Shown: positions 49,027 through 59,084 of the stretch, piece after piece
Position numbering within the stretch: position 1 is the stretch's first letter
How the letters are laid out: every line of letters starts with the position of its first letter
Source: an uncultured Holophagaceae bacterium
GTDB lineage: Bacteria > Acidobacteriota > Holophagae > Holophagales > Holophagaceae
Direction of reading: 5' to 3'
Assembly: GCA_903868115.1 (NCBI GenBank)
Contig: CAIPUA010000177.1
Coordinates: 1 to 61,240, forward strand
DNA: 61,240 nucleotides
Position numbers and translations under genes: made by a program
Notes under the pieces: generated by a model
Databases searched by the model: none
Told to the model about the DNA's origin: nothing
Seen by the model: only the letters and a program-made list of their open reading frames with translations

Positions 49027-50157
49027 ATGCGCTTCCTCCATACCTCCGACTGGCACCTGGGCAAGACCCTCTGCAACGCGAACCTGCTCGAGGACCAGGC
49101 GCATGCCCTGGAACAGGTCATCGCCATGATCAAGGACGCCAAGCCCAAGGCCTTCGTGATCGCCGGAGACATTTACGACCGCGCAGTGCCACCCAAGGAG
49201 GCCGTGGCGCTTCTGGACGAATTCCTTGGCAGGGTCGTCGGTGAGCTCAAGGTGCCCGTACTGATGATCGCGGGAAACCACGATAGCCCCGAACGCCTGG
49301 GCTTCGCAGCGGACTTCCTCAAGCCCCAGGGCCTTCATGTGGTCGGCCTCCTGGAGGACGAACCCGAGCCCGTGGTGATCGGCGACGCCGCCTTCCACTT
49401 GATGCCCTACGCCGACCCCGCCACCGCGCGGTTCGCCTTGGGGGATGAAGGCATTCGCACCCATCACGATATCCTCACCGCACAGCTGTCCCGAGCCTGG
49501 GGCCGCCATCCCCAGGCCAAGCGATTCATCGCCGTCGCCCACGCCTTCGTGGCCGGTGGCCTCTCCTCCGAATCAGAACTGGGCCTCGCCGTGGGGGGCA
49601 GCGGCGAGGTGGACGCGAAGCTCTTCGCACCCGCCGACTACGCGGCCCTGGGCCATCTCCATAGCCCCCAGGACGCGGGTTTCGCCCATGTCCGCTACGC
49701 CGGCAGTCTGCTCAAATATTCGGCGTCCGAAGCCACCCACCTGAAGGCCATCACGCTGGTGGAGTTGCCAGCCAAGGGCAAGGCACACACTGAGCCCATG
49801 CCATTCGCGCCCCGGCGGGATCTCCGCAAACTGCGCGGCGCCTTCGAGGATCTGTTGCGCGAAGCCACGGGCAACCGGGAGGACTACCTGTTCGTGGAAC
49901 TCACGGACCCAGGCCCCGTGCTCGATGCCATGGCTCGCCTGCGGCGGGTCTATCCCAACATCCTGGGGATCCAGACAGGTCTCGAACGCAGCTCGCCTGA
50001 CTTCGAACCCTTGCGCTCCGATCCCCGGAACCTCGATCCTGAAAGCCTGTTCCAGACTTTCATCAAAGAAAGCACGGGCGAGAATCTCAGCGAGGAGGAG
50101 TTGATCGTCTTCCGCGAAGTGGCCGGAAAAGCCCTGCTGAATCGGAGCGCCGAATGA
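49027..50157 (+). CDS. sbcD: Exonuclease SbcD (Mre11 family)
   Basis: Nuclease subunit of SbcCD, which cuts hairpins and trims double-strand ends. 376 residues from ATG 49027. Metal-binding motifs: HTSDWHLGK, AGDIYDR, GNHDSPERLGF, AHAFVAGG and ALGHLHSPQ. I chose this start by family alignment; a Shine-Dalgarno site is weak, and an in-frame ATG at 49000 would add nine residues. Its stop overlaps a small open frame (ATGA) leading to sbcC. Confidence 0.94.
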   Translation: MRFLHTSDWHLGKTLCNANLLEDQAHALEQVIAMIKDAKPKAFVIAGDIYDRAVPPKEAVALLDEFLGRVVGELKVPVLMIAGNHDSPERLGFAADFLKPQGLHVVGLLEDEPEPVVIGDAAFHLMPYADPATARFALGDEGIRTHHDILTAQLSRAWGRHPQAKRFIAVAHAFVAGGLSSESELGLAVGGSGEVDAKLFAPADYAALGHLHSPQDAGFAHVRYAGSLLKYSASEATHLKAITLVELPAKGKAHTEPMPFAPRRDLRKLRGAFEDLLREATGNREDYLFVELTDPGPVLDAMARLRRVYPNILGIQTGLERSSPDFEPLRSDPRNLDPESLFQTFIKESTGENLSEEELIVFREVAGKALLNRSAE

Positions 50158-50294
50158 GCGCGGAGCAGGAGCGGAGCGCCACTTTGCCGAAGGCGAAGCC
50201 CGCAGGGTTCCGCGCAGGGAGGCTCCATCCCCGCGAGCGGAGCGAGTGGGAGCAAGGTCCAGCGGACCGTGCATTGGATGGAGGCGCGGCATGA
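50154..50294 (+). CDS. 46-codon open frame bridging sbcD and sbcC (unit 1)
   Basis: Starts at ATG 50154 inside the sbcD stop and ends with TGA at 50292-50294, overlapping the next ATG. It encodes MSAEQERSATLPKAKP, a polar Arg/Gly/Ala-rich remainder and GGAA. It shares its first 17 codons with unit 2. A coupling peptide is possible; equally it may be repeat DNA kept open to pass ribosomes to sbcC. Confidence 0.45.
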   Translation: MSAEQERSATLPKAKPAGFRAGRLHPRERSEWEQGPADRALDGGAA

Positions 50295-50358
50295 GCCCGG
50301 AGCAGGAGCGAAGGGCCACTTTGCCGAAGGCGAAGCCCGAAGGGCGCGGCGCAGGAGG
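50154..50358 (+). repeat. Imperfect direct repeat in the sbcD-sbcC junction
   Basis: The segment at 50154-50207 recurs at 50291-50344 with four differences in 54 positions, and both copies keep the reading frame (137 bases apart). The core GAGCAGGAGCG and CCACTTTGCCGAAGGCGAAG, with GAGCGGAGCGAGTGGGAGC between copies, looks like a REP-like dispersed element; a genome-wide copy count is not available here. Confidence 0.75.
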
Positions 50359-50368
50359 CGCCGCGTGA
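50291..50368 (+). CDS. 25-codon open frame bridging sbcD and sbcC (unit 2)
   Basis: ATG at 50291 lies in the stop of unit 1 (ATGA); its TGA (50366-50368) overlaps the sbcC GTG at 50365 (GTGA). It encodes MSPEQERRATLPKAKP, then EGRGAGGAA. Only the coding continuity and the overlaps support translation. Confidence 0.42.
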   Translation: MSPEQERRATLPKAKPEGRGAGGAA

Positions 50369-53300
50369 AGCCCCTCCGCCTCGTCCTCCAGGCCTTCGGT
50401 CCCTACGCCGCCTGCCAGGAACTGGATTTCGCCGACCTCGGCGGCCAGGATTTCTTCCTCATCCACGGCCCCACGGGCGCCGGGAAGACCAGCCTCCTGG
50501 ACGGTCTGAGCTACGCCCTCTACGGCGAGACCAGCGGTGGCATGCGCGAAGCCAAGGATATGCGCAGCCACTTCGCGGACCCGACACTTGAAACCAGGGT
50601 GCGCTTCGAGTTCCAGCTTGGAACTCACATCTATCGCGTCGATCGCTGCCCGGAACAGATGGTCCCCAAACAGCGCGGCGGCGGGCAGAAGAAACAGAGC
50701 TACATCGCCAACCTGTGGGAACTGGAGGCAGGCGAGGCCACGCCCCTCGCCACCGAGAAGCCCACTGCCGTCGATGCCCGCGTTATCGAGCTCATGGGAT
50801 TCAAGGCCAGCCAGTTCCGCCAGGTGGTACTGCTGCCCCAGGGTCGCTTCCAGGAATTCATGCTCGCGGGCTCCGCCGAACGCCAGGCCATTCTCCAGGT
50901 GCTCTTTCAGACGGAACGCTACGCCCGCATAGCACAGGCCCTGGCCGACGAGGAGAAGTGCCTCAAAGAAACCATGCGCACCACCTTGGCCGAATCCCAG
51001 CAACTTCTGGAACAGGTTGGCGTGGACTCCGTGGAGGAACTGCCCGGCCTCATCAGGGAAGCTGAACGCCGCGGGACTCTGCTCAAGGGCGAGCAGGAGA
51101 AGGTCATCCAGGCCGCCGCCGCCGCCGCCGCCGCACTCCAGGAGGGCCTGCGCGCCTCGGTCCTGGTGAAGGAACTGCAGGCCGCCGAAGCCGAACGAGA
51201 GGAACTCGCATCCCGCGCTCAGCTCATGGAGGTGCGCCGGACGGAGCAGGAGCGGGCCCTTCGTGCCGAGTTCATCCTTCCGCCCGCCCGCCGACTTCAG
51301 GAGGCCCAGGACCGCACCCGCGATCTGGGCGAGGAGGAAGGGCGCCTGGCCGAGGTCGCAGGGGCCATGACCAGGATCTTCGTTGACGCCGAGGAAAAGC
51401 TCGCCCAGGCCGATGGCCAGGAAATCCGGCGGGAGGAATTGCGGCGCAGCATCGCCCGACTGAAGGAACTCGAGCCCAAACTCGTGGCTCTCGAAGAATC
51501 CCGCAAGGAGGTCCGGGCCTCCGCCCTGGAGCGAGGCCGCCTGGAGGACGATGTTTCCGAACACAGGCGTCGAACTGAACTGGCTGGACAGGAACTGTCC
51601 AGGCTCCAGGTCCAGGTCCAGGAACTGAGGACCGAAACGGACCAGTCGGAGGCTCGGGAGCATCTACTTTATCTCGTCAAAAAACAGCGGGGCCAGCGGG
51701 ATGAGCTGGAGCGGTACTGGATGCAGGCCAAGGATGCCAAGGAGGCTCTGGAGGATGCCGAGGGTAGTCTCTGGGCCGCCAAGGATGAACGGGGCACCGC
51801 CCATGAGGCGCAGCAGCGAATCCTGGCGCGGCGCCAGGAAGCCCAGGCTGCATCCCTGGCGCGCCACCTCGAATCGGGAGCGCCCTGCCCCGTCTGTGGC
51901 AGCACAGAGCATCCCCTTCCCGCGCGGAGCGCAGCCGATCTTCCGGATGAGGAATCCATTCAGGCAGCCCGGGACCGCGATGATCTGGCCGAGGTTTCCC
52001 TGGCCAGAGCCCAGGAGAACGCCACCCAGCGCCTCATAGCCTACGAAGGGCTGCGCGCCCGAACCGATGGGCTCCTGGACGCCCTGGGCGACCTTGCCCA
52101 GCAACCCGCCGAGCGCTTCGCGGCCCAGGAAGCCGAGCGGCGCACCGACCTCGAGCGCAGCCGAACCTCCGCCACGCGGCTCCCGAGCGTGGAACTCGAT
52201 GTCTCGGCCGCTGAGAACAAGAAGACCGCCACGAACCAAGTCCTTGACGCCAGCCTGCTGCGCCTCGAGGAACTGCGCACCCGGGAGACGGAAGCTAAGG
52301 CCAAGGTCCGCTTCCTCGAGGAGAGCCTGCTTTCGGAACTGCGCGCACCCGGCGCCCTCTCTACTCGTCGGGAACAGGCCGAGCGCGAGTTGGCCGGATC
52401 CGAACGGGAACTCCAGGAGGCCAGGACCGCCCGCGATGCAGCTCAGGCGCAAGCGCAGGGCTCTGGAGCGCGCATGGAGGCCCACCGGGAGCGGATGCAC
52501 GATGGTCAAGCCGAGACCAGCCGCTGTGAAATCGAATTGGACGAGGCCATTGCCGCGGCCCGCTTCCGTGACCGCTCAGACTTCGAACTGGCCCGGCGCA
52601 CTCCCGAGGAGCAGGCCACCATGGTCAGCGAACTGGAGAGCTTCACGGCGGCCCTCCAATCCGCAGAGGACCGTCTGACCCGGGCCCAGGAACAGGCCTT
52701 GGGCATCCTGACGCCCGACCTCCTTTCGCTCAAGACCTCGGTGGAGGCGGCCCAGACGCGACTCTCCAGGGCCGGAGAGGAACTAGGCCAAGTCCAAGGC
52801 GAACTTGCCAGCTTCCAGCGGGTGAAGCGGACCCTGGAAGCGAAGGACCGCGAGATCGCCCTGCTGGATCGCCGCTACCGAGTGCTTGGCAAACTCACCC
52901 GTGCAGCCAAAGGCGAGGAAGGCTCACGCATTTCCTTCGAGCGCTATGTCCAGGGCGCCATCCTCGACGAAGTCCTGGTCTCCGCGAGTGAACGACTGCG
53001 CAAAATGAGCAAGCAGCGCTACGCCCTGCGCCGCGCCCTTGGCGCGGGTGATCTCCGCAGGGCGGGCGGCCTCGATCTCGAAGTGACCGATACTCACACG
53101 GGCCGCCCTCGGGCGGTGAGCACCCTGTCAGGCGGCGAGGGTTTCCTGGCCAGCCTCGCCCTGGCTCTGGGCCTCTCCGATGTGGTCCAGCGCAATTCCG
53201 GCGGTATCCGCCTCGACACGGTCTTCATCGACGAAGGGTTCGGCAGCCTCGATCAGGAGGCCCTCGACCTGGCCCTGCGGACCCTCGAGGAACTCAAGCA

Positions 53301-53418
53301 GGGCGGCCGTCTCGTGGGCCTCATCTCCCACCTCGAGGAGGTCAAGGCCCGCATCCCCGCCCGCCTCGAAGTCATCCCCGGCCCTGGCGGCAGCCGCGCC
53401 GCGTTCAAAGTGGGCTAG
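50365..53418 (+). CDS. sbcC: Exonuclease subunit SbcC (SMC-like ATPase)
   Basis: Partner of SbcD. 1017 residues from GTG 50365, with AGGAGG twelve bases upstream. Walker A HGPTGAGKTSLLDGL (35-48); two long coiled coils; zinc hook APCPVCGSTEHPLP near 509; ABC signature TLSGGEGFLASLALALG near 920; Walker B TVFIDEGFGSLDQEALDL near 951. Length is in the normal range for the family. The GTG overlaps a tiny open frame, so translation probably depends on the frames read upstream. Confidence 0.95.
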   Translation: MKPLRLVLQAFGPYAACQELDFADLGGQDFFLIHGPTGAGKTSLLDGLSYALYGETSGGMREAKDMRSHFADPTLETRVRFEFQLGTHIYRVDRCPEQMVPKQRGGGQKKQSYIANLWELEAGEATPLATEKPTAVDARVIELMGFKASQFRQVVLLPQGRFQEFMLAGSAERQAILQVLFQTERYARIAQALADEEKCLKETMRTTLAESQQLLEQVGVDSVEELPGLIREAERRGTLLKGEQEKVIQAAAAAAAALQEGLRASVLVKELQAAEAEREELASRAQLMEVRRTEQERALRAEFILPPARRLQEAQDRTRDLGEEEGRLAEVAGAMTRIFVDAEEKLAQADGQEIRREELRRSIARLKELEPKLVALEESRKEVRASALERGRLEDDVSEHRRRTELAGQELSRLQVQVQELRTETDQSEAREHLLYLVKKQRGQRDELERYWMQAKDAKEALEDAEGSLWAAKDERGTAHEAQQRILARRQEAQAASLARHLESGAPCPVCGSTEHPLPARSAADLPDEESIQAARDRDDLAEVSLARAQENATQRLIAYEGLRARTDGLLDALGDLAQQPAERFAAQEAERRTDLERSRTSATRLPSVELDVSAAENKKTATNQVLDASLLRLEELRTRETEAKAKVRFLEESLLSELRAPGALSTRREQAERELAGSERELQEARTARDAAQAQAQGSGARMEAHRERMHDGQAETSRCEIELDEAIAAARFRDRSDFELARRTPEEQATMVSELESFTAALQSAEDRLTRAQEQALGILTPDLLSLKTSVEAAQTRLSRAGEELGQVQGELASFQRVKRTLEAKDREIALLDRRYRVLGKLTRAAKGEEGSRISFERYVQGAILDEVLVSASERLRKMSKQRYALRRALGAGDLRRAGGLDLEVTDTHTGRPRAVSTLSGGEGFLASLALALGLSDVVQRNSGGIRLDTVFIDEGFGSLDQEALDLALRTLEELKQGGRLVGLISHLEEVKARIPARLEVIPGPGGSRAAFKVG

Positions 53419-56292: not shown

Positions 56293-59084
56293 TCAGTCCC
56301 CTCTGCACTCACGACCGTCCAGCACCGGGGGCAGAGATCGAGATCCGCTCCCTCTCCCGAGCCACCGAGGCGGTTCCAGCACCGGGGGCACTTGGTGCCA
56401 CCGTGGGCCATCACCTGGACATCCAGTTCTTCGCCGTCCAAGATCCGAAGGCCGGACACGACCAGGAGCTCCTCGACGGATTCGCCAAGGTTCGTTAGCA
56501 GAGCCCGATCCGCGATGCTTAGCGTGACCACCACTTCCGCATCGAGACTGGTGCCAATCAGCTTGGCCGCACGATGAGGTTCCATGGCCGCCTGGACGGC
56601 CTCCCGGATTTCCCAGAATCGTGTCCAGTCTTTAGACACTTCCTGTCCATTTCCTTCGAGGAACCGCTGTTCAAATACATGGCCTTCGGATTGGGGTATG
56701 TGCTCCCAAATTTCGTCGGCGGTGAAACTGAGCACGGGCGCCATGAGAACGGCCAGACCCTCGGCCAGTTTTCGACAGACGGTTCGGCACCCGCGACGGC
56801 GAGGACTGTCGGTGTCGTCACAGTAGAGTCGGTCCTTGATGATCTCGAAGTAGCGCCCCGAGAGCTCCAGTTGGCAAAAAGAGAGGATTGCCTGCGTGGC
56901 CGTCAGGAAGTCGTAGGCGAGATAGGCCTGGCGCACCTCCCGGGCAAGGCGCAGGAAGGCGTCCCAGACCCAGCGGTCCAGTGGAGACCAGGCATCCACG
57001 GGGGCGTCGTCACGGGTGGGATCGAAGTCGGCGAGCGCGCCGAGCAGGAAGCGCATGGTGTTGCGGATCTTCCGATAGGCGTCCGCATTGCGATCCAGGA
57101 TGTCCTTGGAGATGCGCACATCCTCGCTGTAGTCCACGCTGGCCACCCAGAGCCGCAATATGTCAGCGCCCAGGGTCTTCATGATCTCCTCTGGTGTGAT
57201 GACATTGCCCATGGACTTGGACATTTTCTGTCCCTTGCCGTCCAGCACGAAGCCGTGGGTCACCACGGTGTCATAGGGCTTCTTGCCGCTGGCGGCCAGG
57301 TTAAAGAGCAGGCTGGAGTGGAACCATCCCCGGTGCTGGTCGGAGCCTTCCAGGTAGATGAAGTGGCCGTAATCCTCGGGGGTCAGTTCGGGACTGGTGT
57401 GGCAAACCACCGTGGCGGAAACACCGGAATCGATCCACACGTCCAGGATGTCCGTCTCCTTCTGGAAGCTCGCGGCACCACACGCCGCGCAGACGGCACC
57501 CGTGGGCTTCAGTTGCTCCAGTGGCAGCTCAGACCAGGCTTCGATTCCAGCAGTTTCGATGACTCCGGCGGCCTTCTCGAAGACATCGGCACTTACCAGC
57601 GGCTCACCACATTCGGTGCAGCGGAGCACGGTAATCGGCGTGCCCCAGCTGCGCTGGCGCGAGATGCACCAATCGGGACGGCCGCTGATCATGGCGTGGA
57701 TACGGTTGCGGCCCTGGGTCGGCACCCAGGTAGTGGACTCGACGCCCTCGAGTCCCAGCTCCCGCAGGCTCTTGCCCTTGCCGTTGAGCTCGTCATCCAT
57801 TGTGATAAACCACTGCTCCGTAGCGCGAAAGAAGATCGGCGTCTTGGTCCGCCAGCAGTGCGGATAACTGTGCTGCAACTTTTCTTCGTGCAGCAGTGCG
57901 CCGATGGCCCGAAGCTTTTCCACCACGATGGGATTGGTATCGAAAATGTTCTTGGCCTCGAGATCGGAATCATTCACCGCCGAGACAAAGCGTCCATCTG
58001 GACCCACGAGTTGCAGGAGGCCCAGGTGATGGGCGAGATTGAAGTCGTCCACGCCGTGATCCGGTGCCGTGTGGACTAGGCCCGTGCCCGTATCGGCTGT
58101 CACATAGTCCGCGAGCAGCACGGGAGATTCTCGGTCAATCCAGGCGTGGCGCGCCTTCAGGCTCTGGAACGCGAGCCCCTTGCGGATCTCACGAGTGTGC
58201 ATTTCCACATCGAGTTTTTTTTGAAAATCTGCCAGCAAGGACACGGCAACGACATAGTGGCGATCCTTCGCCTTGACCACCGCATATTCCATATCCGGGT
58301 GCATGGCGATCGCCAGATTGCTCGGCAACGTCCAGGGGGTGGTGGTCCAGATGGGAAGATAGAGCGGCATGGGCAGCTCGAGACGCTTAGCCTCGGCCTC
58401 CGGCACGGGAAAGGCCACTGTGATGGCTGGACTCGTCTTGTCGGCGTATTCCACCTCGGCCTCAGCCAGAGCGGTTCGCGCACCGTAGCTCCAGTGAACG
58501 ACCTTCAGCTTGCGTCGTACCGCACCACTCTCGAAAAGTTGACCCAGCAGGCGCACCACCATCGCCTCGTACTTGGGCTCCATCGTGATGTAGGGTTCGT
58601 CCCAGGCGCCCAGCACACCGAGGCGTTGAAAGCCCGTGCGCTGCGTGTCGATCCATTTCGCGGCATAGGCGCGACACTTGGAAAGGAACTCGCTACGGGG
58701 CATTTCCCGTCGCTTGGGACCTAGATCCTTTTCAACCGCATGCTCGATCGGCAAGCCATGGCAGTCCCAGCCGGGCACATAGGGAGACTCGTAGCCATCC
58801 AGCCAGAGGGACTTGACGACGATGTCCTTGAGAATCTTGTTGAGTGCGTGGCCGATGTGGATGGCCCCGTTCGCATAGGGTGGACCATCATGGAGAATGC
58901 GGCGCCCCTTGCCCTTGCCCGCGGCATTGTCCGCGCGGCGGTGGGCCTCGATGCGCTCGTAAAGCTTCTCGCCCTTCCATCGCTCGAGCCGCCTCGGCTC
59001 GCGCTGGGGCAGATCCGCCTTCATGGGGAAGGCGGTCCTGGGCAGAAAGACCGAATATTTTTTCTTCGTCGGAGCATCGCTCAT
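56289..59084 (-). CDS. ileS: Isoleucyl-tRNA synthetase
   Basis: Charges tRNA-Ile. 931 residues from ATG 59084 (MSDAPTKKKYSVFL). Class I signatures GAIHIGHALNK and GQKMSKSMGN; GWDCHGLPIE; editing-domain motifs (LVHTAPDHGVDDF); C-terminal zinc ligands CPRCWNRLGG and CPRCW. Bacterial type. I looked for a T-box upstream and saw none. Coupled to lspA. Confidence 0.97.
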   Translation of the reverse strand: MSDAPTKKKYSVFLPRTAFPMKADLPQREPRRLERWKGEKLYERIEAHRRADNAAGKGKGRRILHDGPPYANGAIHIGHALNKILKDIVVKSLWLDGYESPYVPGWDCHGLPIEHAVEKDLGPKRREMPRSEFLSKCRAYAAKWIDTQRTGFQRLGVLGAWDEPYITMEPKYEAMVVRLLGQLFESGAVRRKLKVVHWSYGARTALAEAEVEYADKTSPAITVAFPVPEAEAKRLELPMPLYLPIWTTTPWTLPSNLAIAMHPDMEYAVVKAKDRHYVVAVSLLADFQKKLDVEMHTREIRKGLAFQSLKARHAWIDRESPVLLADYVTADTGTGLVHTAPDHGVDDFNLAHHLGLLQLVGPDGRFVSAVNDSDLEAKNIFDTNPIVVEKLRAIGALLHEEKLQHSYPHCWRTKTPIFFRATEQWFITMDDELNGKGKSLRELGLEGVESTTWVPTQGRNRIHAMISGRPDWCISRQRSWGTPITVLRCTECGEPLVSADVFEKAAGVIETAGIEAWSELPLEQLKPTGAVCAACGAASFQKETDILDVWIDSGVSATVVCHTSPELTPEDYGHFIYLEGSDQHRGWFHSSLLFNLAASGKKPYDTVVTHGFVLDGKGQKMSKSMGNVITPEEIMKTLGADILRLWVASVDYSEDVRISKDILDRNADAYRKIRNTMRFLLGALADFDPTRDDAPVDAWSPLDRWVWDAFLRLAREVRQAYLAYDFLTATQAILSFCQLELSGRYFEIIKDRLYCDDTDSPRRRGCRTVCRKLAEGLAVLMAPVLSFTADEIWEHIPQSEGHVFEQRFLEGNGQEVSKDWTRFWEIREAVQAAMEPHRAAKLIGTSLDAEVVVTLSIADRALLTNLGESVEELLVVSGLRILDGEELDVQVMAHGGTKCPRCWNRLGGSGEGADLDLCPRCWTVVSAEGTE

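Follow-up and report, generated by a model that had tools for sequence, protein, structure and literature searches.

MIRUs (mycobacterial interspersed repetitive units) were reportedly found by Supply et al. in 1997 to insert into DTGA sites. A 2025 review describes them as mobile repeats whose insertion sites are start codons and whose internal ORF is coupled at -4 nt (PMC12548453), and promoter activity has been reported for the MIRU units between senX3 and regX3 (PMC4213456). The 74-nt Holophagaceae repeat analysed here resembles them in being short (within the 40-100 bp criterion), dispersed, sense-oriented and tandem at some loci, in carrying an internal ORF that overlaps the neighbouring stop with its start codon and the neighbouring start with its stop codon (83 of 119 arrays), and in its insertion at start codons, as shown by unoccupied sites at sbcC, at clpX and at a third gene. 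However, the host belongs to the Acidobacteriota and not to the mycobacteria, and the two are likened by described design. The Holophagaceae repeat also has four hairpins, a Shine-Dalgarno sequence in the last loop, a stem reaching into the start codon, leaderless-type sites and copies within genes. To our knowledge, its hairpins, Shine-Dalgarno loop, leaderless-type sites and in-gene copies have not been described for MIRUs. The comparison suggests that MIRU-like start-codon capture is not peculiar to mycobacteria, as Acidobacteriota have a repeat, with no known relation to MIRUs, that does likewise.

Rickettsia palindromic elements (RPE) are repeats that lie in frame inside protein genes (PMC10969869), a position that the Holophagaceae repeat shares in rnr, carB, rlmN, an RND transporter gene, nuoL and purL. 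These in-gene copies are a minority of all copies, hence in-frame insertion alone does not make the repeat an RPE; moreover, RPE are palindromic, about 150 bp long, found in Rickettsia and located within ORFs in nearly half of cases, whereas the present unit is 74 nt long, includes several short hairpins and sits mostly on start codons. Like REP/RAYT elements, it is a short, dispersed, non-autonomous hairpin repeat, but it has no GTAG or CGTC tag, its copy-rich genomes encode no RAYT/Y1 transposase, and it lies at gene starts instead of downstream of genes, where REPs are located (PMC3733652). ATGA coupling and bicistronic leader designs include the same overlap of leader stop and next start with a Shine-Dalgarno sequence inside the leader, but in Holophagaceae the coupling device rides on a putatively mobile repeat. 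Searching the literature for an earlier description of such an element in Holophagaceae gave no result.

The sbcD-sbcC junction

The window (the whole stretch of 61,240 nt that was analysed, part of a draft genome of 419 contigs) includes two micro-ORFs between sbcD and sbcC, located on a direct repeat of 81 nt (84% identical, spacing 137), and the features of the junction are listed below.

49027-50157, + strand: sbcD (Pfam Metallophos PF00149 and SbcD_C PF12320; ORF list), stop TGA at 50155-50157
50154-50157, + strand: ATGA overlap of the sbcD stop and leader 1 start (from the sequence; the same RTGA joins sbcD and sbcC directly in relatives)
50154-50290, + strand: repeat unit 1 (74 nt) enlarged by a nested insert of 63 nt; next RTG after 137 nt
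50154-50294, + strand: leader ORF 1, 46 aa, MSAEQERSATLPKAKP...DGGAA (ORF list)
50217-50279, + strand: second repeat, nested within the Shine-Dalgarno loop of unit 1; its 63 nt are divisible by 3
50291-50364, + strand: repeat unit 2, a canonical 74-nt unit, 100.6 bits against the covariance model
50291-50368, + strand: leader ORF 2, 25 aa, MSPEQERRATLPKAKPEGRGAGGAA (ORF list)
50295-50316, + strand: hairpin 1 of unit 2, GCCC/GGGC round a loop with AGCAGGAGCG; covarying pair 7-24 in the alignment
50319-50335, + strand: hairpin 2 of unit 2, variable stem, 6/7 pairs changed on both sides
50345-50365, + strand: Shine-Dalgarno hairpin of unit 2, CGCGGCG / loop CAGGAGG / CGCCGCG, 7/7 pairs with compensatory changes
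50365-53418, + strand: sbcC (Pfam AAA_23 PF13476 and SbcC_Walker_B PF13558); relatives start at the homologous RTGAAGCC

The Pfam domains confirm the flanking genes as sbcD and sbcC, as named in the first-pass annotation, though the start codon of sbcD is not fixed, its ORF being open from 48979. The three four-base stop/start overlaps described there are present at 50154-50157, 50291-50294 and 50365-50368, the TGA of leader ORF 1 overlapping the ATG at 50291 and that of leader ORF 2 the GTG of sbcC at 50365, and MSxEQERxATLPKAKP does open both micro-ORFs. The sbcC GTG takes its first base from the Shine-Dalgarno stem of unit 2, of which it is the final G. At the nested repeat, the boundaries of which are ambiguous by one or two G, the right end restores GGAGG. 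A Pfam search of both micro-ORFs gave zero matches, and a search of Rfam gave only a match to mir-671, which was dismissed as chance.

In 10 of 11 close relatives without the repeat, one of the ten being of the same genus, the sbcD stop directly overlaps the sbcC start (ATGA or GTGA). As these ten Holophagaceae relatives show a direct overlap, the repeat entered an existing sbcD/sbcC overlap. Judged by this comparison, the ATGA at 50154-50157 is the old junction of the sbcC start and sbcD stop, and the sbcC start is now the GTG furnished by the repeat. In the eleventh relative (L027), the junction is occupied by an unrelated-looking 41-nt spacer, which also forms a leader ORF (MNGRSGSMQERLQP) with an ATGA end on the sbcC start.

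Copies of the repeat and insertion at start codons

The genome that includes the window has 17 BLAST matches to the repeat, including the query, and 18 covariance-model matches, and the model finds matches in 58 of 77 Holophagaceae genomes. A scan of 84,980 species for the core pattern identified 101 stretches, while the reversed pattern, used as a control, gave one match in 60 genomes. Those listed, 80 of the 101, come from Holophagaceae/Geothrix records or from Acidobacteria MAGs without closer placement, together with one record that carries the label Deltaproteobacteria and is apparently a relative within the same genus (G003). As judged by the matches listed, the repeat is confined to one family, Holophagaceae.

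Empty and filled sites were compared for sbcC, clpX and a third gene, the product of which starts MKPFAKDQ. The third gene reads GGAGCC ATG AAACCC when empty and GGAGCC ATG AGT...GCCGC GTG AAACCC when filled, and clpX reads ATG AACAAG and ATG AGCACG...GCAGT GTG AACAAA, respectively. Both filled sites retain the old ATG and the sequence upstream; an additional 74 nt follow, and behind a new ATG or GTG the gene continues with codon 2. Comparison of the empty sites at all three genes demonstrates insertion at the start codon, and the units at starts are in sense orientation. A unit extends from TGAG to RTGA, with no long terminal inverted repeats visible and with TGA on both sides, 3 nt being too short to prove target duplication. 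The left and right R are unlike in 29 of 60 flanks, hence the new right RTG belongs to the repeat, and a simple four-base RTGA target duplication was rejected on the same ground. The earlier proposal that insertion had duplicated the ATGA therefore holds in so far as the repeat did enter an ATGA overlap and is now flanked by TGA left and right, but not for the right RTG, which is no plain duplicate.

Whether other copies also lie at ATGA junctions, a question raised by the first-pass annotation, could be answered positively. Arrays of two or more units occur, and 83 of 119 arrays, taken from related genomes in which copies at the same gene are non-independent (as applies to all counts across relatives), start at RTGA and form unbroken leader chains, each leader ending in RTGA, that lead into a longer ORF, the minimum for which was 120 codons except where a contig end truncated it. 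The 83 include two in-gene copies (L133 and L136) that follow the chain rule by chance. The others are 14 broken arrays, 5 with a single long frame and 17 without a left RTGA, among which three apparent chance matches to coding sequence (L102, L126 and window position 57746) were kept. Many short ORFs are found in GC-rich DNA, and open frames such as the two micro-ORFs might arise by chance on a direct repeat rich in GC; however, this is refuted by the survey of copies, with its chains and its empty sites at start codons, and the probability left to it is negligible.

The downstream proteins form 45 clusters, many recognisable from their N-termini (ClpX, HemC, enolase, MurF and NuoB among them), and across these roughly 45 unrelated gene families the units lie precisely on the start codon. 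Three start contexts were distinguished, namely stop/start overlaps, leaderless-type starts and Shine-Dalgarno-led starts (clpX), and TANNNT, which marks the leaderless type, occurs at a distance of 6-9 nt upstream in 20 of the 63 clean flanks versus 7 of 807 control positions. Occurrence at the latter two types of start, and a family-wide distribution in Holophagaceae, extend the picture beyond that drawn earlier from the junction. A mobile repeat of this kind could land on essential genes (clpX, hemC, enolase), bringing its own translation spare parts, and annotated start codons would be wrong or ambiguous in genomes that carry it. Few copies lie in harmless intergenic positions, which may speak for targeting or benefit.

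Structure and reading frame of the leader

In an alignment of 71 distinct 74-nt units, covariation was 0.428, compared with 0.149 ± 0.012 in shuffled alignments, and none of 500 shuffles reached the observed value. The unit includes four hairpins, three of which clearly covary. The first encloses AGCAGGAGCG, the second has a variable stem, and the third, a small CCC/GGG hairpin, shows little variation and hence scant evidence either way. In the fourth, which has the loop CAGGAGG, all seven pairs have changed on both sides, and its last pair links column 54 to the opening base of the start codon that follows (C-G in 34 and T-A in 33 of the 71 units). The GGAGG is retained in 61 of 71 start units versus 4 of 12 in-gene units (P = 3e-4). 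A stem that reaches the first base of the start codon, a Shine-Dalgarno sequence in its loop and the many leaderless-type starts would also be consistent with a regulatory leader, in which the hairpin shuts the downstream gene unless the leader is translated, and the repeat disseminates a translational switch that is put to use as such. However, the 45 downstream gene families have no evident common function, and the leader has no conserved codons with which to sense a metabolite or antibiotic, making this reading very improbable.

The canonical leader ORF has 25 codons, starts at the old ATG and has a stop TGA that overlaps the new RTG, an overlap that requires a length of 2 mod 3. Lengths at true starts, measured from the structure and independent of frame, take 17 distinct values, 14 of which are 2 mod 3 (P = 5e-5, only indicative, as true starts were classed by eye and component inserts are shared between some of the longer values). 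The other three are one of 0 mod 3 (75 nt, in-frame fusions) and two of 1 mod 3. Some copies thus break the rule, with 73- and 79-nt leaders or the 75-nt fusions, and a few are at neither starts nor genes. Among the length changes are nested repeats, a deletion of 15 nt and an internal duplication of 27 nt. Because nested inserts and deletions of differing size preserve the frame, the leader frame appears to be kept by selection, although nested repeats that are inherently multiples of three would hold it without selection. This supports the earlier suggestion that the chain may be selected, and the two alternatives then offered, selection and insertion at ATGA, are parts of a single process.

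Frame 0 has a stop in 0 of 71 units, compared with ~10% expected with random stems, while frame 1 has one in 19 of 71. The entropies of leader codon positions 1, 2 and 3 are about equal (0.70, 0.50 and 0.68), and as there is no third-position excess, conservation appears to act on the open frame and not on the peptide. The peptide sequence itself is probably immaterial, and what matters would be the open frame and its exact end. The conserved N-terminus MSxxQERxAT might instead indicate a small protein gene duplicated in the operon, with functional peptides of 25-46 aa. Yet residues 3, 4, 8, 12-15, 17 and 19 vary freely and track the stem sequence, on which ground a functional peptide was rejected; in-gene copies are read in a different frame, and Pfam has no match, so that this explanation can be given almost no weight.

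Proposed mechanism, in-gene copies and mobility

The best explanation, which we consider highly probable, is that the repeat is a mobile start-codon cassette and that the host gene is kept expressed via translational coupling. A non-autonomous Holophagaceae repeat would insert in the sense direction at TGA, mostly that of an RTGA start codon, after which the old ATG opens the leader ORF inside the repeat. Ribosomes finishing sbcD would translate the leader, and elsewhere ribosomes would start on leaderless or Shine-Dalgarno-led mRNA. The translating ribosome would open the hairpin and expose the Shine-Dalgarno sequence, via which ribosomes would restart on sbcC at the new GTG, and later copies would enter the new RTGA to give tandem chains. 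Insertion would be tolerated because the gene, once coupled to the leader, stays expressed. This coupling logic can be read from sequence alone, via empty sites and covariation, and at many genes the copies provide repeated natural experiments on translational coupling. It is unlikely that the insertion machinery itself recognises start codons, perhaps via mRNA or the initiating ribosome, instead of the copies being sorted to them by selection; if true, there would be a start-codon-targeting transposition or retro-insertion system, for which we know of no enzyme.

The in-gene copies are all read in one common frame (EAGAGAEGH...), which differs from the leader frame and is the only other frame without systematic stops, and related rnr and carB genes are without the insert at the corresponding place. 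A point against the cassette is that stem covariation could serve DNA mobility and not translation. Covarying stems as in mobile hairpin DNA, the in-frame copies inside genes and a leader without third-position signal would all suit a selfish REP/MITE-type hairpin repeat that lands at TGA, with the leader and overlaps as by-products and the start copies as the least harmful. This is nonetheless improbable, given that the frame is held through nested inserts and deletions of many sizes, that GGAGG is retained at starts but decayed in genes, and that few copies occupy harmless intergenic positions away from starts. Furthermore, the Y1 (RAYT) transposase PF01797 is absent from four genomes with 13-18 copies (G000, G006, G023 and G071), and RAYT/Y1 was rejected as the mover. 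Several identical copies of an IS200/IS605-like transposase were seen in three genomes (G034, G085 and G024), uncorrelated with the repeat.

At L107, L113, L090 and L181, the leader is joined in frame to the gene by a 75-nt unit, extending the N-terminus, and two copies in two species (L196 5848 and L209 5709) lengthen the C-terminus of a Fur-like protein. The second repeat (GGGAGGCTCC...GGAGG), 57 or 63 nt long, nests in the Shine-Dalgarno loop of the first, with GGAGG restored and the frame kept, as in the window at 50217-50279, and is also found at L150 5416-5540 and L223 7124; there are 32 nested cases and a few free-standing ones. At L140 4093, L175 4039 and L099, adjacent DNA (about 125-350 nt) is directly duplicated, flanking or together with the element, which suggests expansion by duplication. 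At L121 1464, a copy lies behind rpoD, and part of the rpoD tail (RIRHPRYSKTL) is duplicated after it.
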